From Dehalococcoidia bacterium (GTDB lineage Bacteria; Chloroflexota; Dehalococcoidia; DSTF01; JACRBR01), in assembly GCA_021731085.1 (NCBI GenBank), contig JAKFYB010000039.1:1-64000 (forward strand): a stretch of 64,000 bases of DNA, written 5' to 3'. The position numbers were made by a program, and so were the translations under genes. Below are positions 44,472 to 55,681 of this stretch, in pieces (the first letter of the stretch is position 1; every line of letters begins with the position of its first letter). The notes under the pieces are model-generated. The model was not told where the DNA came from. It did not search any database and worked only from the letters and a program-made list of their open reading frames with translations.

Positions 44472-46202
44472 CTAGAATAGGCCCTGGCGCTGCGCCTTCG
44501 ATAGCAGCCGGAACAGCTCGTAGAAGTTGTTCACACCCTGCTCTGCCAGCTTCTCCAGAAGCGCCGCCCGGCGATCGACCTCCTGGTAGATCTGGCGCCG
44601 GTTCTTCTCGCTGATGCCGCGCGAAGGCGCAATCCGCTGCTCGAGCAGGTAGCTATTCATGAAGCCAGTGAACTCAAACACGTCCTCGATCGGGTTCCAC
44701 CGGAAGATCTCGACGAAGGAGAACGAGTTGTTCGTCGGGTCGTACGCGATGATCTCGGAGATGCTCAGGATCCGGCGCCCGTGCTTGCCGTTGGGAAGCC
44801 GCACGGCACTACAGATGACGACGCAGTTCAGGTTGTCGACATACGTCTTCGGCACGCTGATCGGCGGGCCTGTGACACGCTGGATCAGCTTTTCGACCGT
44901 GGACGCGTGGAAGGTCGCGCAGACGGCGTGACCCGTCATCATCGCCTGGAAGGCAATGTTCCCCTCCTCACCACGAATCTCACCGATAATGATTTCATTC
45001 GGGCGCTGACGGAGGGCAGCCTTCAGCAGGCTGAACATGTCGACGCTGCCGCCACCCTGGCTCATGTTTCCGCGGACGACTTCGCGCGTCCAGTTCGGGT
45101 GCGGAACCTGTACTTCCGGCGTGTCCTCAATGCTTACGATCTTCGCGTGCGCGGGGATGAATGTCATCAGCGCGTTCATCAGCGTCGTCTTACCGGACGC
45201 CGTCTCGCCGGACACGAAGAAGTTCAGCTCCGACTCGACGATGAGCGACAGGTAGCCGCACATCTGCCACGTCAGCGCACCTGAGTTCGCGATGTCTATG
45301 ATGCTCAGCGGAATGCCCATGAACTTTCTGATGGTGAAGTTCGAGCCGTTTTTCGAGACGTCGCCGCCGTAGACGATGTTGATACGCGAGCCGTCAGGCA
45401 ACGTCGCGTCCACGATCGGGTTCCGGAACGTCACCGGCTTCTTGATCTTCTCCGCCAGCTTCAGCACGAAGTCGTCGATTTCCTCGTGGTTGTGGAACTC
45501 GATGTTGCTCTTGAGCCCGCCGAAGATCTTGTGCTCGATGTACACAGGGCCGACGCCGCTGCAGCTGATGTCCTCAATCCACGGGTCGGTGATCAGCGGC
45601 TCAAGTACCGCCATCCCGATTTTGTCGCGGATGATGCGGTACTTGAGGCAGTCCACCTCTGCCGCCGTCACCTTCATACTGCTCGTCGTCGGTCCGCTCG
45701 AAAGGAACGGCAGCTTGAGAAAGCCCTCTTCGCCCTTCGCGACCTTCGCCTCCGGCTTTTTGTCGACCTTCTCCGGCACCTTGTCGACGATCACGCACGT
45801 GTCTTCGATCGCTTTCAGCAGGACTTCGGTCTTGTGTTCCGGCGTTTCCGCATCGGCTAGCAGTTCGACAAAGTCGAGCAGCCGTATCTCCATCTCCTCA
45901 AGCAGATCCTCCATGCGGGAGTTCGTCGGCTCGATGGCAATGTAGAAGTTTCGCGCGTCATTCTCGTCCGGGAACGTGTGTACGTAGATGCCGTTCCCCA
46001 CGGGATAGATCAGGTTCGGGTCCTTGATGTCCCCCAGCTTTCGCGACGCCTCTGCATAGAAGTCCGGCACACCGTGCTCCGCGATCGGGGCGTGGTGCAG
46101 GTAGTCCATCAGGTGCGGCGCCGCGTCGGCGTGTTCACGCAGCTCTGGTGAGAGCAAGTTGTGAATAGGGCACTGCGCCTCGTGCGTTTCCGCCGCTGCC
46201 AT
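44472..46202 (-). CDS. arlI: Archaellum ATPase ArlI (FlaI)
   Basis: The 576-residue product is a secretion-superfamily hexameric ATPase of the ArlI type. The N-terminal domain (about 1-175) carries a Lys-rich insert near 140-160. The core has DPWIEDISCSGVGPVYIEH, Walker A GETASGKTT (332-340), the Asp box IEDT (358-361), Walker B IIIGEIRGEE (404-413) and the His box TGHAVCATFHA (423-433). GSNFTIRKF and the PHPNWTREVVR block after the Asp box are features of archaeal ArlI rather than PilB or TadA. It powers assembly and rotation of the filament with ArlJ and ArlH. It starts 3 bases after the arlH stop, so the two are coupled. Confidence 0.93.
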   Translation of the reverse strand: MAAAETHEAQCPIHNLLSPELREHADAAPHLMDYLHHAPIAEHGVPDFYAEASRKLGDIKDPNLIYPVGNGIYVHTFPDENDARNFYIAIEPTNSRMEDLLEEMEIRLLDFVELLADAETPEHKTEVLLKAIEDTCVIVDKVPEKVDKKPEAKVAKGEEGFLKLPFLSSGPTTSSMKVTAAEVDCLKYRIIRDKIGMAVLEPLITDPWIEDISCSGVGPVYIEHKIFGGLKSNIEFHNHEEIDDFVLKLAEKIKKPVTFRNPIVDATLPDGSRINIVYGGDVSKNGSNFTIRKFMGIPLSIIDIANSGALTWQMCGYLSLIVESELNFFVSGETASGKTTLMNALMTFIPAHAKIVSIEDTPEVQVPHPNWTREVVRGNMSQGGGSVDMFSLLKAALRQRPNEIIIGEIRGEEGNIAFQAMMTGHAVCATFHASTVEKLIQRVTGPPISVPKTYVDNLNCVVICSAVRLPNGKHGRRILSISEIIAYDPTNNSFSFVEIFRWNPIEDVFEFTGFMNSYLLEQRIAPSRGISEKNRRQIYQEVDRRAALLEKLAEQGVNNFYELFRLLSKAQRQGLF

Positions 46203-46205
46203 CGC

Positions 46206-46946
46206 TTACGCCCTCGCGCTCGATACGGGAATGATGCGCATGCCAAGCCCAGGCTCGATGTCGAAGTTGATGATGTTACCCGTACTCTTGTCCGCCCCAC
46301 GCACCTTGGCGACTTCGAGCGCCTTCATCAGTTGGTCGCCAACCTCTTGCACACGGAGGCGCAGGTGCGCGTCACAGAGCGAGCGCATGCGGATGAACAT
46401 CGTCTCGTCGAACGCGTAAGAGTGAATGGTCAGGAAGATTGTCATGCGACGGTCGCAGAACTCCTTGACTTTGTTCAGGAACCGCAGCGTCGCCGCCTCC
46501 GGCACCTGTGACACGAACGATGTGATCGAATCCAGAAAGATCACATCGAAGCGACCCTCAAGCTGCGCCAGGTGATCCAGCAGTTCGTCGAAGATGTGCG
46601 CCGCCATGCCTTCGTCGACAGCGGCCGGAGCGCGATACACATTGAGGGCGCCAAGCAAGAAGAAATCCGTGACGTCGAGGTCGAGACTGGCCATCTGACG
46701 GAACAGTGACTGTGGTGTGTTCTCCGTCGTGTACAACACGGCGCGGAAGCCGCTGTTCAGTGCGCCGTTCAGCAGCTGCTGCGTGACGACGCTCTTACCG
46801 GCGTTTGACTGGCCCTCTATCAGGATCAATGACCCTTCCGGAATGCCGCCGCCCATCTTCTTGTCGATCTCGGTGCTGCCCGTCGAGATGATGCGGCGCT
46901 CGTCCGTGCTTGTGAGGAGCGTGAGCTTCTTGGCTCCGACACCCAT
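46206..46946 (-). CDS. arlH: Archaellum KaiC-like ATP-binding protein ArlH (FlaH)
   Basis: The 246-residue RecA/KaiC-like product starts MGVGAKKLTLL; an open frame to 47297 has no homology. IISTGSTEIDKKMGGGIPEGSLILIEGQSNAGKS includes Walker A at 45-52. Walker B VIFLDSITSF lies at 135-143, and the MTIFLTIHSYAF strand follows. The Glu that activates water in KaiC is absent after Walker A, as expected for ArlH, which binds rather than turns over ATP. ArlH forms a ring with ArlI at the motor base. GGAGAT upstream of ATG 46946 supports the start. The gene is first in the leftward unit. Confidence 0.9.
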   Translation of the reverse strand: MGVGAKKLTLLTSTDERRIISTGSTEIDKKMGGGIPEGSLILIEGQSNAGKSVVTQQLLNGALNSGFRAVLYTTENTPQSLFRQMASLDLDVTDFFLLGALNVYRAPAAVDEGMAAHIFDELLDHLAQLEGRFDVIFLDSITSFVSQVPEAATLRFLNKVKEFCDRRMTIFLTIHSYAFDETMFIRMRSLCDAHLRLRVQEVGDQLMKALEVAKVRGADKSTGNIINFDIEPGLGMRIIPVSSARA

Positions 46947-47069
46947 TTGCGGATCTCCGTCTCTAGCGCCCTGGCGCGTCCCTGCATGTCGCGCCACGCT
47001 ATGCGCGCCACGCGACCGGCCGCCATCGATGGCGAGCCTCTCTATGTTGTCGGCCTTCACACGGACACG

Positions 47070-47163
47070 CATAGGGGTGTACACCCTCGTCATTGACCCC
47101 ATTCGGAGTCCCGCGGCACGTCCTCCGCGTCGTTCATGCTGTGTTCGAGGGTGAACCCCTACG
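47070..47163. promoter_or_regulatory. Palindromic motif pair in the divergent archaellum control region
   Basis: The region between arlH and the sensor gene (46947-47247) holds two versions of one motif in opposite orientation. TAGGGGTGTACACCCTCG lies at about 47072-47089. CGAGGGTGAACCCCTA, the reverse of TAGGGGTTCACCCTCG, lies at about 47146-47161. A related TAGGGGCCAGCACCCC lies upstream of the archaellin genes (about 49074-49089). GGGTGTACACCC is a perfect 12-bp palindrome. A LuxR- or other dimer-type regulator site is inferred. Confidence 0.5.
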
Positions 47164-47247
47164 CGTCCATCCTGACCGCGCGCCCACAACGAGGGTTTTT
47201 GCGAGTGACGCAACGGTAGGCCCGCGGGCGACAATTCATCGCTGACT

Positions 47248-49062
47248 ATGGGACTACTGCGCAAGCTCATCCGACTGCGTCCAGGGTTGCCGCGCATCGC
47301 GCTGCCCGCGGGTGCGCGCGCGACGTTCGGTGACGCCGTTCATCGCGCCGTGCCGTTCGCCTTCGTGGCCTGCGCCGTCGTCGCCGTTGCGGCCTTCGTC
47401 GCGTTGGCCGTCAGCTTCGCGGCCGAACGTGCGTACTCCGATGATCGCGACGAACGGGCGAGCGCGGAAGCAACCTCATTCGCGTCTCACAGCAGTTGGC
47501 TCGCCACCGGCGACGCGTTCGGCGGCTACATACAGATGCTCCGCGACGCCGAGGACCCGGCCGTGCGCGACATCGCCGTGCCATCGGACGTACGGTCCGC
47601 CTCACTACGCCGACTCCTCGAGCTGAACACGAACAGGTTCACCGCGCTCGCCGTCGTCGACCTCAACGGCACCCTGATTGCCGCGAGCGATCCATCGCTG
47701 CTCGACGCTGCTTCAAGCCAGGCATATTCCACTGTGCGCGCCAATCGCGGCAACGCGAACTCGGACATCGTGCTTCCTGCAGGAGCTCCCGCGTACGTGG
47801 ATTACGCGACGATTCTCGTAGACCCACTCGCCGGCCCCTGGGCCGTTCTCGTTGCGCGCGCCGACCCGACGCGTCTCTGGCAATCGACGCTCGCCGCCAC
47901 CGTTGATGGCGGGCGCAACGTCATCATCAACCGGGACGGGCAGCTCGCAGCCGGCACATCGCCGGAGTTGCTTGGGACGACTTGGGCGGCTTCCGAGTTC
48001 GCCGGCGATGCCTACCGCTCGACCGTTGTCGGCGTAGATTCCATCTGTAGCCTCGCGCCCATCGCCAACGACACGCAGATCGACCACGAATGGAACGTCG
48101 CCTCGTGCTTGCCTGCCACTACCGTGCTGGCTGCCGGTTCGGCGCCAAACCGCGTCGCGACCGTCGCTGGTGTTGGTGCATTGTGCGCGGCCATCCTGGG
48201 TCTCGGCGCGCTCGCGTTCGTCGCCAGGGAGCGCACGCCCGATGAAGTCGGCGAGTCGGCGCCACCCGTCGACGAACCTGAGGTCGACGAGCCGGCCGCC
48301 GAGATAGCACCAGCTCCCATTCCGCAGATCTTTGTTCTGCCACAGGAAGTAGCCGACGCACGAACCCTAATCGAAGCGTATGAAGCTCGCAGCGCGCGAG
48401 TCGCCGGCCGAATTCGCGATTCAGTACAGGCACGCCTCCTCGTTGCGTCGTCGCGCGTGGAAGAGGCACTCGAACTGATCGAGAGCGATGTCGCGCTCGC
48501 GCGCGTCATGCTGATGCGCGCCGCCCACGAACTCGACGATCTCAACGAGCACGAGCTGCGCTCCATGGGTCAGGAGCTCTATCCCGATCTGGTTCGTCTC
48601 GGCTTGCCAGCGGCGCTGCGTGCCCTCCGTAAGGACATGACGGATCTCATAGAAGTTGACGTAACGGCTGACTCGGATGCCGACAGCCTCGACAATTTGA
48701 ACGACCGCGCCATCGACATGCCACGACGCGTCGCCATGTATCGGCTCGCCCTCGATGCACTGCGTGAGTTCTCGGAGGCAGGCCTTGCGAACTGCACGAT
48801 CGACCTTCAGCGAAGCGAAACGCGTCTCTGGCTCGCAATAAAGGGCCATGGCGACGCAATCGACCTCGACGAAGCATCCCTCGCGGCGGCCCGGATTGCC
48901 GTCCAGGCATATGGCGGCCGCTTCGTGCTCGACAGGGCGCATGACACGACAGAAGTGGCCGTCGAATACGAATCCGCTGCATCAGCAGGCGAGCCTCCAG
49001 CACCGGAGCAAGACCCTAGGGACGAGAACGCTGAGGCCGATGCTGAATCTGAAGCTGCATAG
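47248..49062 (+). CDS. dCache-like membrane sensor with degenerate kinase-like cytoplasmic part
   Basis: The 604-residue product has two membrane helices (about 33-58 and 306-326) flanking an outer domain of about 245 residues. The outer domain resembles a double-Cache sensor (TALAVVDLNGTLIAASDPSLLD, YVDYATILVDPLAGPWAVLVARAD, VIINRDGQLAA). The cytoplasmic half has an acidic linker and a long helix pair. It then has AHELDDLNEHELRSMGQELYPDLVRLGLPAALRALRKDM, which resembles the dimerisation helix of NarL-class kinases. The phospho-acceptor His context and the HATPase N, G1 and G2 boxes are not recognisable. It may be a signal-binding regulator rather than an active kinase. Divergent from arlH, it likely controls the archaellum genes. 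Confidence 0.65.
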   Translation: MGLLRKLIRLRPGLPRIALPAGARATFGDAVHRAVPFAFVACAVVAVAAFVALAVSFAAERAYSDDRDERASAEATSFASHSSWLATGDAFGGYIQMLRDAEDPAVRDIAVPSDVRSASLRRLLELNTNRFTALAVVDLNGTLIAASDPSLLDAASSQAYSTVRANRGNANSDIVLPAGAPAYVDYATILVDPLAGPWAVLVARADPTRLWQSTLAATVDGGRNVIINRDGQLAAGTSPELLGTTWAASEFAGDAYRSTVVGVDSICSLAPIANDTQIDHEWNVASCLPATTVLAAGSAPNRVATVAGVGALCAAILGLGALAFVARERTPDEVGESAPPVDEPEVDEPAAEIAPAPIPQIFVLPQEVADARTLIEAYEARSARVAGRIRDSVQARLLVASSRVEEALELIESDVALARVMLMRAAHELDDLNEHELRSMGQELYPDLVRLGLPAALRALRKDMTDLIEVDVTADSDADSLDNLNDRAIDMPRRVAMYRLALDALREFSEAGLANCTIDLQRSETRLWLAIKGHGDAIDLDEASLAAARIAVQAYGGRFVLDRAHDTTEVAVEYESAASAGEPPAPEQDPRDENAEADAESEAA

Positions 49063-49324: not shown

Positions 49325-49903
49325 ATGAATCGAGTTAAGAACTTCATCCGCCGACTCGGCGAACAGAAGGGCATCACGGGCCTTGAGACCGCCATCATTT
49401 TGATCGCGTTCGTCGTGGTCGCCGCTGTCTTCGCGTTCGTCGTGCTAAGCACGGGTCTCTTCAGCTCCGAGCGGAGCAAGGAGACGGTCTACGCCGGTCT
49501 TGAGAAGACACGCGGAACGATGGAACTGACGGGCGCCGTTACGGCCACGTCTGACGGCACCGAGGCCACCGCGCTTCGCTTCGACGTCACGCTGGCTGCC
49601 GGTGGTTCGGCTGTGAACTGGGACGAAGCCGCGACGGTCAACCAGACCATCGTGTCCTACATCGACGACTCGCTGGAGATCGACGCCTTGACGTACGTCT
49701 CGACCGTCATCTCGGGCGACACCGACAACCTGCTTGAGCCAGGTGAGCTGTTCGAGATCGAACTGACGGGCCTCGCCGCCCTCACGCAGATCGAAGCGAA
49801 CGACACGTTCACCATCCAGGTTCAGCCCCCGTCGGGCTCGTACATGGTCATTGAGCGGACGATGCCGGCCTCTATCGAAGAGACCCTCGTCAACCTCAAC
49901 TAG
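49325..49903 (+). CDS. arlB1: Archaellin (filament subunit) 1
   Basis: The 192-residue product has a class III signal peptide. A charged leader of 16 residues ends in Lys-Gly, and ITGLETAIILIAFVVVAAVFAFVVLSTG follows. Cleavage after Gly16 would put Glu at mature position 5, as in type IV pilins and archaellins. The remainder is a beta-rich domain that would form the filament surface, with possible N-glycosylation sequons NQT and NDT. GGAGGG precedes ATG 49325. The prepilin peptidase (ArlK/PibD) is not encoded in the window. The next gene is a close paralogue. Confidence 0.88.
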   Translation: MNRVKNFIRRLGEQKGITGLETAIILIAFVVVAAVFAFVVLSTGLFSSERSKETVYAGLEKTRGTMELTGAVTATSDGTEATALRFDVTLAAGGSAVNWDEAATVNQTIVSYIDDSLEIDALTYVSTVISGDTDNLLEPGELFEIELTGLAALTQIEANDTFTIQVQPPSGSYMVIERTMPASIEETLVNLN

Positions 49904-49992: not shown

Positions 49993-50571
49993 ATGGCACG
50001 GCGCAGGGATGTGCACCGATTCCACAGCGAAGAACACGGCATCACCGGCCTCGAGACCGCCATCATCCTGATTGCGTTCGTGGTGGTCGCCGCCGTCTTC
50101 GCGTTTGTCGTCCTCAGCACTGGTTCGTTTAGCGCCGACCGCAGCAAGGAGACGGTGCTCGCCGGGCTCGCGAAAACGCGCGGCAGTATGGGCCTTTCGG
50201 GAAGCGTCGTGGCGACATCGAACGGAACAGAGATCACGAGCGTCGCGTTCGATGTGACCCTCGCGGCCGGTGGCTCATCGGTGAACTGGGATCCCGCCTC
50301 GACCAACAATCGAACCAACGTCTCCTACATCGACGGGGTCGACGAAATAGACAACCTCACTTACACGACCAGCGTCGTGGCTGGCGATGCCGACAATCTT
50401 CTGGAGCCAGGAGAATTGTTCGAGATTACGGTCACGGGATTGGACGCGTTGGTGCAGCTCGAAGAAGGCGACATCTTCAGATTGCAGGTGCAACCGCCTT
50501 CCGGCGCGACGCTCATCATCGAGCGCACGCTGCCTGGCGGCATCGATGACACGATCATCAACCTGAACTAG
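49993..50571 (+). CDS. arlB2: Archaellin (filament subunit) 2
   Basis: The 192-residue product is a paralogue of the preceding gene, with the same length. A 16-residue charged leader ends EEHG, then the same ITGLETAIILIAFVVVAAVFAF helix and similar strand blocks (VTLAAGGSSVNWD, LLEPGELFEITVTG, LQVQPPSGATLIIERTLPGG). Sequons NRT and NVS are present. AGGGAGGC precedes ATG 49993. Two similar archaellins probably give a major filament and a minor or basal segment, as in several archaea; which is which cannot be told. The hairpin between the genes may lower its expression. Confidence 0.88.
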   Translation: MARRRDVHRFHSEEHGITGLETAIILIAFVVVAAVFAFVVLSTGSFSADRSKETVLAGLAKTRGSMGLSGSVVATSNGTEITSVAFDVTLAAGGSSVNWDPASTNNRTNVSYIDGVDEIDNLTYTTSVVAGDADNLLEPGELFEITVTGLDALVQLEEGDIFRLQVQPPSGATLIIERTLPGGIDDTIINLN

Positions 50572-50643: not shown

Positions 50644-51327
50644 GTGGAGAGCACAGCCGCTCTCAGCAGCAAGGTTGCCGCAATCGAAGACGAGATGCGG
50701 ATCATCAAGGGCGAGGTCAAGCAAGTCCTCACCGAGATCCGCAGCGCGATCCTCGTGCAGGACAACCCGTTTGAAGAGGCGACCAACCGACCGCGCGCCG
50801 TTCAGATCGTGCCCGCCGTCGCTGAAGAGCCCGCGCGCGTGGAGATCGTGATGCCGCAGAGCCAGCCGCAGCCCGCCGTCATCGCGACAGCAGTCCCACA
50901 CCCGGATGATGCACGGAAGGCGCAGCCCGAACCGGCCCAAACGCAACAGCCGCCACTGCACCCGTCATATCGGGACGAGCCGCCCGGGCAACAGGCCTCG
51001 CACGAACAGGCGCCAAAGCGACCGCAGCCGCGCCAACAGGCACCGCAGGGCCGCTGGAGTCTCCTGACTGTGGCCAGCCTCGCCGCCTGGGCCGAAGACG
51101 CACTGCAGAAGCTCGGCAGTAAGCGCCTGGCGATGCTCCTCGATCTGTGCGAAGTCTCCGGTTACCTCACGCCTGATGCACGCCAGGCGCTCGCCCGCGT
51201 GTCAGAGCTCGACGCACCCGAGCCGGAGCAGCGCGCATCGGCTATGGACGTGACGGTGCTGCTCCGCCAACTCGACGCGCTGTTGCAGGGAGAGCCATCG
51301 GACCTCGGTCCGCGGTTGATGTACTAG
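50644..51327 (+). CDS. arlDE: ArlD/E-like archaellum protein
   Basis: The 227-residue product has an N-terminal coiled coil (about 8-40: LSSKVAAIEDEMRIIKGEVKQVLTEIRSAI), then a Pro/Gln-rich linker of about 100 residues. The C-terminal helical domain (about 138-190: SLLTVASLAAWAEDALQKLGSKRLAMLLDLCEVSGYLTPDARQAL) matches the Arch_fla_DE domain pattern of archaeal ArlD/E: Leu-rich helix, W-x-E, L-x-x-x-G, 'LL..Y..(I/S)G.(I/L)(S/T)...'. In archaea ArlC/D/E form the cytoplasmic switch linking the motor to chemotaxis. The GTG start at 50644 with AGGAAG is accepted. Confidence 0.7.
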   Translation: MESTAALSSKVAAIEDEMRIIKGEVKQVLTEIRSAILVQDNPFEEATNRPRAVQIVPAVAEEPARVEIVMPQSQPQPAVIATAVPHPDDARKAQPEPAQTQQPPLHPSYRDEPPGQQASHEQAPKRPQPRQQAPQGRWSLLTVASLAAWAEDALQKLGSKRLAMLLDLCEVSGYLTPDARQALARVSELDAPEPEQRASAMDVTVLLRQLDALLQGEPSDLGPRLMY

Positions 51328-51366: not shown

Positions 51367-51846
51367 ATCGATAAGGCAATCACGACAGTTCTGCTTACCA
51401 TCGCCGCGATCGTGGCCATTGTGGCCGTGACGAATGCGGTGCTTCCTGCCGTCTCCAAGACGACCGGTTCACTGCTCGCGTCGTCCGAGGTCGTTCAGGA
51501 TCGCATCGCCAGCCAGATTGAGATCGTCCATGCGGCGGGCGTCGATGGCGCGCCCGATGCCCAGATCTGGGTCAAGAACGTCGGCGCCGCCCGCATCGCC
51601 CCGATCGACCGGGTAGACGTGTTCTTCGGGCCGACAGGCGACTTCGCCCGCGTCCCGTACGGCACCGACGCAAGCTGTGTCGCGCCGTGCTGGTACGACA
51701 CGCTCGAGAACGCCACGACCTGGGACCAGACGGCGACACTGCGCGTGACACTGAAGCTGGACGCCAATCTCGCGTCGGGCACCACGTACTACATGAAGGT
51801 CGTGACGCCCAACGGCACGCTCGACTCGAAGTACCTGACGGTCTGA
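51367..51846 (+). CDS. arlG: ArlG-like archaellum stator protein (probable ATC start)
   Basis: The hydrophobic N-terminal helix (IDKAITTVLLTIAAIVAIVA) lies directly after a GAGGGAG site, but the only start-like codon at its head is ATC at 51367. The nearest GTG (51412) would remove the first half of the membrane helix, and a TGA at 51352-51354 blocks any earlier start. With ATC, the product has 159 residues: one N-terminal helix and a beta-sandwich (IASQIEIVHAAGV, QIWVKNVGAARIAPIDRVDVFFG, TLRVTLKLDANLASGTTYYMKVVTPNG). ArlF and ArlG are external proteins of this shape that anchor the motor or cap. Naming as ArlG follows gene order only. Confidence 0.65.
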   Translation: MDKAITTVLLTIAAIVAIVAVTNAVLPAVSKTTGSLLASSEVVQDRIASQIEIVHAAGVDGAPDAQIWVKNVGAARIAPIDRVDVFFGPTGDFARVPYGTDASCVAPCWYDTLENATTWDQTATLRVTLKLDANLASGTTYYMKVVTPNGTLDSKYLTV

Positions 51847-51850
51847 CGCC

Positions 51851-52363
51851 ATGGAAAACAGCATTCCGGCGCTCTTCATCGCTGCCATCTTCATGCTCGC
51901 CACCGTCCTCATCGGCCGCGGCGGCTTCATCGGCATGGACAACGTCGGCCAGTCGCTGCGTGTCTCCGAAGTACGCAACATCGAACGCCGTGGCACAGAG
52001 CTTTCCGTCACGAACACCGCGATCGACCCGACCGGTGCCAACGCGACCATCACACTGCGCAACGACGGCCAGACGTCGCTCCAGGACTACGCGCGCATGG
52101 ACGTCGTCGTCCAATACTTCGATGAGGTCGGCGGTCGCCACGACAAGTGGGTTGCGTACACATCCGGCGGCCTTTCTTCAGACATGTGGACGACGGGCGC
52201 TTTCACAGACGACGTCTTCGAGCCCGGCATCTTCAACCCCGGCGAGCAGATGGAGATCGTCGTCCGACTCAACCCCGTCGTCGGAGCCGGCACGACGAAC
52301 AAGGCCGTCATCGCCTCCGAGCAAGGGATCACACTCCAGACACTCTTCGCGGGGCCACCCTAA
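51851..52363 (+). CDS. arlF: ArlF-like archaellum stator protein
   Basis: The 170-residue product has an N-terminal membrane helix (MENSIPALFIAAIFMLATVLIG) without a Gly cleavage site. A beta-rich outer domain follows (TELSVTNTAIDPTGANATITLRNDGQTSL, MDVVVQYFD, GEQMEIVVRLNPVVGAG). This matches ArlF, the archaeal protein that binds the S-layer in the pseudoperiplasm and holds the motor still. In a bacterium the partner must be some other wall or layer. The stop overlaps the ArlJ start (TAATG), so the two are coupled. ArlF versus ArlG is assigned by gene order. Confidence 0.65.
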   Translation: MENSIPALFIAAIFMLATVLIGRGGFIGMDNVGQSLRVSEVRNIERRGTELSVTNTAIDPTGANATITLRNDGQTSLQDYARMDVVVQYFDEVGGRHDKWVAYTSGGLSSDMWTTGAFTDDVFEPGIFNPGEQMEIVVRLNPVVGAGTTNKAVIASEQGITLQTLFAGPP

Positions 52364-53973
52364 TGTCAGCCTTCGCGACAATTACGCGCGCGTTGCCATT
52401 CGGAGCGAAAGGGCCACGGCGCAGCGACAACATCGAGGAAGCTGCTAACTGGCAGCGATCTTCGTCGCTGTTTCGCCCCGCCGCGACCGAATACGACCTG
52501 ATCACGCAGCTCACGTACATGTCCGCGTTGGCCACCGCCAACGTCGGCCGCGAGCAACTCTTCGAGAAGACGGCGCAACTCGGCTACAGCACTTCGGGCT
52601 ACTTCCACCGCGTCCACCTCGTCGCCCAGAAGCTGAACTACGACTACGCCCGCGCCTGCCAGCTCGTCGCCGACGCCACAGACAACGACATGATCGAGAG
52701 CCTGCTGCTGCGGTTCTCCGCGTCGCTGTCCTCCGGTGAGGCAGAGGAAATCTTCCTTGCTCGCGAGACAGAAGTGCAGCTCGAGACATACGCGCGTAAG
52801 TACGAACGCGACCTTGAGACGTTGCAGAAGTGGACGGACTCCTTCGTCGCGCTGATGGTCTCCGTGACCCTGATCGTCGTCGTGTCGATGGTCTCGATGA
52901 TGATCTACAGCGTCGGTACGCTCTTCATCCTCGGTCTTGCAACCATCATGATCAGCATGGCGTCGCTCGGTGGCTGGATCATCTACCGAACCGCGCCCGT
53001 CGAACCCAAAACACACAAGCTGCAGCTGAAATCCAAGACGCAGGACCAGATGTTCCTGTTGGCGAAGGTTCTCCTGCCGACGGCCGCCCTGCTCGGCGTC
53101 GCAACCGCGCTCGTGTTCAACGCCGGCGCCGGCATGATCGCCGCCGGAATCACTGCGTTGCCCGTCGGCATCATGGCCTTCATCGACGACCGCCGCATCG
53201 ACACGTACGACAAAGATATGTCGACGTTCTTGCGCGCTCTCGGCTCCATCGTCGGCGCCATCGGCACGACCGTCACCGACGGCCTCGGCCGTTTGAATCA
53301 GCGTTCGCTCGGTTCGCTCGAACAGAACGTCCGCCGTCTGCACATCCGCCTGCGCTCTGGCCTCAGGCCAGACCTCTGCTGGACGCGCTTCGTCGGCGAA
53401 ACCGGCAGCGAGTCCATCGACCGCTCCGTCAACGTCTTCTGGGACACCATCAAGCTCGGCGGCGACCCGGACAGCATCGGCTACCTGTCGTCGCTCTTCG
53501 CGCTGAAGATCTCCCTCCTGCGGGAAAACCGGAAGCTTGTCTCGCAGACCTTCATGATGCTGATGGTGCCGATGCATGCCGTCCTGCTCGGCGTGCTGTT
53601 GTTCGTCTCCGAAGTCGTCGTCGTCTTCGCGACGCAACTGAATGACGTGCAGATGCAAGCTGCGAACACGACGGTCGATGCGTCCGTGACTGGTGGCACG
53701 GATGTCACGTCCGTACTCGCGTTTGCGTCACCCAACGTCGGCTTCATCCATGGCTTCGCGCTGGTCGTCACGCTCGTCCTGACGTTCGTGAACACGTGGG
53801 CGCCGCACGCCGCCAGCGGTGGCCACCACCACAAGGTGTGGCTCTACGCCGCCATCATGCTGCTGATCTCTGGCCTGGCGTTGATGATCATTCCGTGGAT
53901 CGTGCAGGGCCTGTTCGAAAGCGTTTCCGCAGACCCGACCGGCACCGGTGGCGCAGGCATTCCAGAAGTCTAG
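52363..53973 (+). CDS. arlJ: Archaellum membrane platform protein ArlJ (FlaJ)
   Basis: The 536-residue product has two T2SSF-like cytoplasmic domains. The first is at about 45-165 (TQLTYMSALATANVGREQLFEKTAQLGYS, IESLLLRFSASLSSGEAEEIFL). The second is at about 285-400 (DKDMSTFLRALGSIVGAIGTTVTDGLG). Between and after them are at least seven to nine membrane helices (about 170-225, 230-280, 390-525). ArlJ is the only integral membrane core of the archaellum and binds the ArlI hexamer. The length (536) is normal for archaeal ArlJ and longer than PilC or TadB/C. Its gene is in the rightward unit, separate from arlHI, unlike the common archaeal order H-I-J. Confidence 0.88.
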   Translation: MSAFATITRALPFGAKGPRRSDNIEEAANWQRSSSLFRPAATEYDLITQLTYMSALATANVGREQLFEKTAQLGYSTSGYFHRVHLVAQKLNYDYARACQLVADATDNDMIESLLLRFSASLSSGEAEEIFLARETEVQLETYARKYERDLETLQKWTDSFVALMVSVTLIVVVSMVSMMIYSVGTLFILGLATIMISMASLGGWIIYRTAPVEPKTHKLQLKSKTQDQMFLLAKVLLPTAALLGVATALVFNAGAGMIAAGITALPVGIMAFIDDRRIDTYDKDMSTFLRALGSIVGAIGTTVTDGLGRLNQRSLGSLEQNVRRLHIRLRSGLRPDLCWTRFVGETGSESIDRSVNVFWDTIKLGGDPDSIGYLSSLFALKISLLRENRKLVSQTFMMLMVPMHAVLLGVLLFVSEVVVVFATQLNDVQMQAANTTVDASVTGGTDVTSVLAFASPNVGFIHGFALVVTLVLTFVNTWAPHAASGGHHHKVWLYAAIMLLISGLALMIIPWIVQGLFESVSADPTGTGGAGIPEV

Positions 53974-53981
53974 GAGGAACC

Positions 53982-54383
53982 ATGACGGTAGAACCCGAGA
54001 ACAGAAAGCCCAGCAAGGATGACCCGTGGCTGCGTGTGCCCGCCTCGGCTCGACCAGCAGAACGCCATCGCTTCAACGGTTCCGAAGCGGACGAAGCCTC
54101 CGGCGAGGTCGACGAAAACGACGAAGACGTCGAGTTCCTGAGGACGCTCGCCGAGCAAGCTGCTCTTGAGGCCAAGCCTAAGCAAGTGGCTGTGCCACGC
54201 GTGCCCGCGCGCCGCTTCAATGTCCCCGCCGATATCAACCTGGAAGTGTTCCGCACGACCGAGGTCGAGCGCACGCGCCCCCGCGTCCTCAACCAGATGG
54301 AAGTCGATCTCGTCGAGATGGATGACCTGCTAGAGCAGCTGTCGACGACGGCCGCTGCCTTGCGCCGCAGGAAGGCTGCCTGA
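53982..54383 (+). CDS. Archaellum-operon hypothetical protein
   Basis: The 133-residue product has no recognised domain. Residues 1-60 are charged and likely disordered. Residues ~75-133 hold conserved-looking blocks (ARRFNVPADINLEVFRTTEVERTRPRVLNQMEVDLVEMDDLLEQLSTTAAALRRR) with a helical C-terminal part. AGGAGG directly precedes the ATG, and it starts 8 bases after arlJ, so it is made with the motor. It is soluble, cytoplasmic and without a counterpart I know in archaeal operons. It could be a switch or assembly factor. Confidence 0.6.
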   Translation: MTVEPENRKPSKDDPWLRVPASARPAERHRFNGSEADEASGEVDENDEDVEFLRTLAEQAALEAKPKQVAVPRVPARRFNVPADINLEVFRTTEVERTRPRVLNQMEVDLVEMDDLLEQLSTTAAALRRRKAA

Positions 54384-54388
54384 CCGCC

Positions 54389-55681
54389 ATGCTTACGCGT
54401 GTGCCGCCCGCCTTCTTGTTTGGGCTCGCCATCTGGACCTGCATAACCGCCGGCATGGGCTGGTACGCGCTCCAGGGCACATCCCGCGCGAGCGGCCAGC
54501 TCGAAGGCGCAGACTTGCGTACGCCTACGGTTGTCGCCGCCCTTGGATCCTCTACAACCACAGCCGTCCCAACATCTGACGGCAGCACTCGCACCGTGAC
54601 GTCGCGAACGTCCACGCCAAGGGCGACCACGCCGCAAGCGACAACGACGCGGTCGTCCACGCGAACAGCAGTCGCGACGCAGCGCGCGGGCACACGTACG
54701 CCCGCCGCGTCCCGCACCGCCGTGTCGACGGCAGAGCCGGGCGCGCACACCGCTACGCCCACAACAGCCGGCGAACCCACGACCGAACGGTCGCCCGAAC
54801 CCTCGGCCACCGCCAGCCCTACGGCGGTACCGACGTTCACCCCCACGCCCCACGACGGTATCTATCCGTCAGCAACGCCCACCACGCGACCACCCACCGC
54901 AACGCCCGCAGCGACAACAACGCCCGCGCCGTACCCTGTCCCGCGATACGCGCAGTCCGCCGGTGTTGAGGGAGGCGTTGCTGGTGCAGGCGCTGGCTCC
55001 TCGGCCACCATCCGCGACGCGGCGCACGCACCGAACAAGGGCGTGGTCGTGCTCGACCCTGGCCACGGTCGCGGCGATCCCGGCGCCGTCCACCACCTGC
55101 CTGACGGAACCCCAAACGTCCTCGAGTCGGAGATGAACCTTCGCAACGCGCAGCTCATCCGCACGCAGCTCCTCGCGCTGGGTTACGACGTCTACCTCAC
55201 GCGCGATACGCCCGGCCGCGGCCCAGATGGTCCGCTCGTCCAGCAGTTCATCGTCTCGGACCTCATCTGGCGCACGCAGCTTGCGACCGCCGTGGATGCG
55301 GATCTCTTTCTCGCGCTGCACGGAAACGGCGCCTCCGTGAAGTCCATCGCTGGCCCGGAGACGTGGTACTGCGGCCTGCATGAGCAAGGGAACGCCAATG
55401 CGAAGTTCGCCGCGATGATCCAGCAGGCGATGATGGACGCTCTCCACGAGTACGGGTACTTCCCGCCGAACCGCGGCATCATGGAAGACGCCGAGCGCCA
55501 CCACGGCGACTTCTGCCAGTTCGTCGTGACCCGCGAGACAAGCATGCCGTCCGCGTTGCTCGAGTTTCTCTTCCTCTCGAACGATGACGACGCCCGCGTG
55601 CTCGCCGATGTCCGTTCGCAGGAGGTCCTCGCCGGCCACATAGCGGCCGCCATCGATCGCTTCCTCAGCGAACGGCCGTAG
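54389..55681 (+). CDS. N-acetylmuramoyl-L-alanine amidase in the archaellum operon
   Basis: The 430-residue product has a membrane helix at about 10-28, a Thr/Pro/Ala-rich stalk (30-190) and a C-terminal Amidase_3 domain (about 217-430). VVVLDPGHGRGDPG gives the zinc His226, ESEMN the zinc Glu (246 or 248), ALHGNG the second His311 and ALLEFLFLSN the catalytic Glu392. It cuts the amide bond between muramic acid and the stem peptide. The stalk would let it reach the wall from the membrane. Starting 5 bases after the previous gene, it is in the arlJ unit. Archaeal operons need no such enzyme. Cutting a path for the filament is the natural explanation. Confidence 0.88.
   Translation: MLTRVPPAFLFGLAIWTCITAGMGWYALQGTSRASGQLEGADLRTPTVVAALGSSTTTAVPTSDGSTRTVTSRTSTPRATTPQATTTRSSTRTAVATQRAGTRTPAASRTAVSTAEPGAHTATPTTAGEPTTERSPEPSATASPTAVPTFTPTPHDGIYPSATPTTRPPTATPAATTTPAPYPVPRYAQSAGVEGGVAGAGAGSSATIRDAAHAPNKGVVVLDPGHGRGDPGAVHHLPDGTPNVLESEMNLRNAQLIRTQLLALGYDVYLTRDTPGRGPDGPLVQQFIVSDLIWRTQLATAVDADLFLALHGNGASVKSIAGPETWYCGLHEQGNANAKFAAMIQQAMMDALHEYGYFPPNRGIMEDAERHHGDFCQFVVTRETSMPSALLEFLFLSNDDDARVLADVRSQEVLAGHIAAAIDRFLSERP

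Follow-up and report, generated by a model that had tools for sequence, protein, structure and literature searches.

A predicted murein amidase is the last gene of an archaellum operon in a Dehalococcoidia bacterium

The archaellum of Chloroflexota was borrowed from archaea, and how it passes the wall is stated to be unknown for peptidoglycan-bearing Chloroflexota without PilN/PilO (PMC13319060). The same question is raised by a Dehalococcoidia bacterium (assembly GCA_021731085.1) in whose archaellum operon the last gene encodes an amidase predicted to cut the bacterial wall. The stretch of DNA analyzed here, referred to as the window, comprises 64,000 nucleotides (contig JAKFYB010000039.1, positions 1–64,000, forward strand).

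The arl operon in the window forms a compact run on the forward strand. It begins with two archaellin genes, arlB copy 1 (49325–49903), which matches the arlB genes of relatives, and arlB copy 2 (49993–50571; Arch_flagellin, E 2e-27), followed by an arlCDE-like gene (50644–51327) that has no family hit and was assigned from its position and sequence, the gene order being kept in the family. Two stator genes, arlG-like (51412–51846; NCBIfam ArlG, E 2e-5) and arlF-like (51851–52363; NCBIfam ArlF, E 9e-6), both scoring below the cut-off, precede the membrane platform gene arlJ (52363–53973; NCBIfam ArlJ/FlaJ, E 4e-136). The run ends with a gene for a 133-aa protein (53982–54383), recognized by iterated profile search as a member of a family seen directly after arlJ, and the amidase gene (54389–55681). 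The spacing between the last two genes is 5 bp in the window and 3–12 bp in five relatives. Scans for promoters and terminators returned nothing above shuffled sequences. The genes for the motor ATPase ArlI (44472–46202; NCBIfam archaellum motor ATPase, E 2e-187, over the cut-off) and for ArlH (46206–47297; NCBIfam FlaH, E 5e-75; true start probably inside the open reading frame) lie on the reverse strand, opposite to arlB–arlJ, whereas arlH, arlI and arlJ are contiguous in other families. A dCache/histidine-kinase-like gene (47248–49062) is located between arlI/arlH and arlB–arlJ.

Pfam, alignment, AF2 and Foldseek analyses identify the 430-aa product of the last gene as an archaellum-linked N-acetylmuramoyl-L-alanine amidase. 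Pfam Amidase_3 (PF01520) matches aa 220–423 over profile positions 1–173 of 174 (E 3e-32), and the score of 112.4 bits against a curated cut-off of 27 meets the criterion for family membership. The catalytic domain (about aa 217–428, codons 55037–55672) is predicted confidently by AF2. In Foldseek it matched CwlD, CwlV, Nostoc AmiC2, LytH and E. coli AmiC, with TMt values of 0.89 for 1jwq, 0.85 for 7rag and 0.90 for 4rn7, which meet the criterion for the amidase fold. None of the NCBIfam equivalogs AmiA, AmiB, AmiC and CwlD was matched over its cut-off, the best being CwlD with 87 bits against 221.6. Judged by its sequence, the gene product is a member of the known family Amidase_3, and cleavage between MurNAc and L-Ala is inferred. 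In an alignment of 26 amidase sequences, H226 (codon at 55064), E246 (55124), H311 (55319) and E392 (55562), which supply the His-Glu-His zinc ligands and the catalytic Glu, are invariant, while position 248 is variable, indicating that the zinc ligand is E246; the original prediction had offered Glu246 or Glu248, and only the former stands.

The catalytic domain is preceded by a membrane helix and a stalk. The N-terminal helix (aa 7–32, codons 54407–54484), a probable signal anchor, is predicted by AF2 at pLDDT 75–95 and overlaps a hydropathy peak at aa 5–23. The Thr/Pro/Ala-rich stalk (about aa 43–212, codons 54515–55024) is mostly disordered: threonine, proline and alanine make up 29%, 16% and 16% of aa 43–186, respectively, and pLDDT falls below 50 at aa 74–168 and 192–212, giving a low-confidence or disordered stretch at about aa 74–212. 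The length of the stalk is not conserved, the window amidase having the longest one and its orthologues comprising 332–361 aa. The amidase identity, five-base spacing, membrane helix, stalk and complete zinc site originally read from the DNA are confirmed.

The genome to which the window belongs carries a murein cluster with a class B PBP, murF, mraY, murD, murC, murB and ddl, with murE located elsewhere. Its 7 Mur_ligase_M genes meet the criterion that the host has murein, and there are 4 matches to M23, 5 to LysM and 1 to SLT. At the level of genes, the murein pathway looks complete, so that a wall would be present for the archaellum to cross. Across 294 genomes of the class, the Mur_ligase_M counts split sharply, with 3–9 copies in 134 genomes (hereafter walled) and 0–2, mostly one, in the rest; the lone copy of murein-less genomes is presumably FolC. 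This split agrees with the report that peptidoglycan synthesis was lost once within Dehalococcoidia (PMC10284905), as well as with the combination of archaellum genes and a missing peptidoglycan pathway in SAR202 strains (PMC10444878). The 47 arlJ-bearing genomes of the class comprise 19 walled and 28 murein-less ones, and M23 and LysM follow the same division in archaellate genomes. The presence of at most one Mur ligase in 28 of the 47 sampled archaellate genomes fits poorly with the published figure of 235 out of 244 archaellate Chloroflexota encoding peptidoglycan biosynthesis genes (PMC13319060).

Loci of relatives were obtained by an arlJ alignment scan, adopted after a single-protein scan of genome contigs had found no relative; the phylum-wide arlJ scan gave only two weak matches outside the class. 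In the window's family, the amidase occupies the same operon slot, after arlJ and the 133-aa gene, in all six genomes with arlJ, and two fragmentary genomes of the family lack both arlJ and the amidase. The sister family f2 has the amidase in the slot in both of its genomes with arlJ, bringing the linkage to 8/8 over the two families, which meets the criterion that a machine-dedicated hydrolase be encoded with its machine and conserved there. When 40 Amidase_3 domains of the class were placed in a tree, the eight arl-linked copies formed one clade (100/100) on a long stem, with none of the sampled unlinked Amidase_3 domains falling inside it. The linkage to arlJ that the original prediction called for is therefore found, together with a clade of its own. 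Three further genomes with arlJ (G016, G076 and G130) contain a full Amidase_3 domain, located elsewhere and falling on other branches; the amidases of these genomes and of G017 and G011 lie outside the arl-linked clade and were not counted as arl-linked.

The mere presence of Amidase_3 shows no association with arlJ among walled genomes (11/19 with arlJ versus 51/115 without, p 0.33), and the arlJ signal of Amidase_3 resides in position and clade. Such frequencies would suit a general division or cell-separation amidase that entered the arl operon by an accident of gene order, passage of the archaellum then using other hydrolases; E. coli-type Amidase_3 enzymes split septa, and the protein encoded at 54389–55681 is the single Amidase_3 of its genome. 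However, 72 of the 134 walled genomes of the class are without any Amidase_3, indicating that it is unneeded for division there, and the linked copies constitute their own clade, kept in the slot across two families. The placement of the amidase in the slot in 6/6 and 2/2 genomes is not a matter of chance, and an accident would leave unexplained the other murein proteins that occupy the same slot elsewhere. We consider a division role unlikely.

These other slot proteins differ between lineages. In f3, the gene after arlJ and the 133-like gene encodes a 282-aa SLT transglycosylase (G010) or a 381-aa protein with an M23 and a weak SLT match (G013). The slot contains one LysM and one M23 protein in f36 (G264), and PilN and PilO-LysM in two Anaerolineae genomes with 4 and 5 Mur ligases; the Anaerolineae loci were inspected after the domain set had been chosen, and the result agreed. 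In f70 (G162), it encodes a membrane protein (TM-LysM) with two LysM repeats and the 133-like motif at its N-terminus, a fusion that connects wall binding with the archaellum genes. Including the amidase lineage, a murein protein is thus present in the slot in five of seven informative walled lineages. The chance of this is about 7e-9 under a rough model in which 12 of 2,800 genes are murein genes and three gene positions are available, or 9e-8 if 20 murein genes are assumed; the model takes the lineages as independent, and the domain list was fixed after the first cases had been seen. Genome-wide lists of M23, LysM, SLT and Amidase_3 in walled genomes of the class revealed no such domain near arlJ outside the slot.

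Two walled arlJ lineages, f37 (four genomes) and f4 (one genome, G016), are without a murein enzyme in the slot, and the slot enzyme is therefore lineage-specific and not a universal requirement. The contigs of G191 and G283 end before the slot can be judged. No such gene occupies the slot in about 36 archaellate genomes that have neither murein nor Mur ligases, although some of the contigs end shortly afterwards. These empty slots serve only as a weak control, because murein was probably lost in a single event (PMC10284905) and genes with such murein domains are almost absent from these genomes as a whole. With moderate confidence, we interpret the 3' end of the Chloroflexota arl operon, after arlJ and the 133-like gene, as a wall-passage slot independently filled by different murein hydrolases or binders, the archaeal motor having been adapted to the bacterial wall several times.

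The LysM binding domains in three of the five slot solutions, together with the proposal that PilO-LysM serves as an anchor in Litorilinea aerophila (PMC13319060), leave room for an amidase that holds the rotating filament in the wall as an anchor or bearing, its domain mainly binding or trimming murein at the base as LysM and PilO-LysM would elsewhere. Such a role appears improbable, as all four catalytic residues are invariant, a long disordered stalk is ill-suited to torque, and the replacements in f3 are enzymes rather than binders.

The 133-aa gene belongs to a family whose members, as detected by iterated profile search, immediately follow arlJ at about 50 Chloroflexota loci. Its members share a conserved acidic C-terminal helix motif and, at many loci, an N-terminal membrane helix. 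The 133-aa protein of the window has no Pfam match over the cut-off and no NCBIfam match; a DprA_WH match below the cut-off (E 0.0027) was rejected as chance. The family looks like an undescribed archaellum component of Chloroflexota. In the G162 fusion (L080, 10395–11561 in reverse-complement coordinates), one protein combines the 133-like motif, a membrane helix and a pair of LysM repeats. In f37 (L076–L079), the slot contains a membrane protein fused to a 133-like C-terminus and, on visual inspection, similar to S26 signal peptidases; the one tested gave no Pfam or family match. In addition, an A24 prepilin peptidase gene is found inside the archaellum locus, immediately or almost immediately behind the 133-like gene, at L087, L092, L119 and L122 (confirmed by Pfam for L087, L092 and L122); a previous study placed the A24 prepilin peptidase outside the archaellum locus (PMC12488501).

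We favor, as the probable explanation, a murein amidase dedicated to the archaellum and serving to open the wall for its passage; the activity of the enzyme, its recruitment to the archaellum and the need for it in export are inferred, without experiment. This reading is based on the family, catalytic site, predicted topology, host murein pathway, operon position, clade and replacement in the slot by other murein proteins. The amidase may be co-transcribed with arlJ, as inferred from the 3–12 bp spacing in the family, and would be inserted in the cytoplasmic membrane through its N-terminal helix. The flexible Thr/Pro-rich stalk would carry the zinc amidase domain outward to the wall. At the assembly site, the domain is predicted to cleave murein between N-acetylmuramic acid and L-alanine, and the loosened murein would let the ArlF/G stator and the filament pass. 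In walled relatives, the wall layer measures about 20–30 nm within a periplasm of 40 nm (PMC10284905), and by inference a disordered stalk of 140–170 residues could in principle span such a distance.

Operon linkage alone suggests nothing beyond co-expression, and the enzyme might then serve filament release, wall turnover in the motile stage or attack on neighbors while merely being expressed with motility. We regard these roles as very unlikely, given that the N-terminal membrane helix and the bounded tether fit action on the cell's own wall and not release, and that endogenous wall proteins reuse the same slot. The idea put forward in the original prediction, a bacterial adaptation of an archaeal machine, gains support from the linkage, the clade, the other murein proteins in the slot and the host murein pathway, as a lineage-specific adaptation in which the opening of a passage remains inferred.

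Murein hydrolases dedicated to a machine include FlgJ of the flagellum, VirB1 of type IV secretion, EtgA of type III and TagX of type VI (PMC5061870). As proposed for the window amidase, each is devoted to one machine and clears murein, and TagX is also encoded in the cluster of its machine. By comparison, these enzymes are a glucosaminidase, transglycosylases and an endopeptidase and serve bacterial-type machines, whereas the archaellum in the window derives from archaea. AmiC2 of Nostoc punctiforme (5emi; PMC5591844) shares the Amidase_3 family and fold (Foldseek E 2e-14) and perforates murein to form nanopores, but it acts at cell septa rather than with a motility operon, and no arl linkage is known for it. 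CwlD, CwlV, LytH and AmiC share the catalytic domain fold and zinc residues, but only 20–28% identity to the window amidase in structural alignments, and no stalked archaellum-linked form has been described among them. LytH and CwlD were crystallized with their partners ActH and GerS, respectively, whereas the window amidase has no known partner. The PilN/PilO-LysM genes of L. aerophila (PMC12488501, PMC13319060) are likewise murein-related, lie near a Chloroflexota archaellum locus and were proposed to act in wall passage or anchoring; they differ in encoding binding and scaffold proteins, not hydrolases, and were reported with LysM in only 3 genomes.

A literature search combining archaellum and amidase yielded no account of an archaellum-linked amidase, and the main texts of two published papers on Chloroflexota archaella, supplements excluded, make no mention of an amidase or hydrolase. 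The enzyme family is already known; what appears to be new is a murein hydrolase belonging to an archaellum operon. The amidase provides a concrete candidate for how the archaellum crosses murein in Chloroflexota without PilN/PilO, and the walled and wall-less archaellate relatives offer a natural comparison. The different slot proteins of the lineages hint at the way in which a machine from archaea was adapted to cells with a wall, and the amidase illustrates what the transfer of a machine between domains may need in a new envelope.
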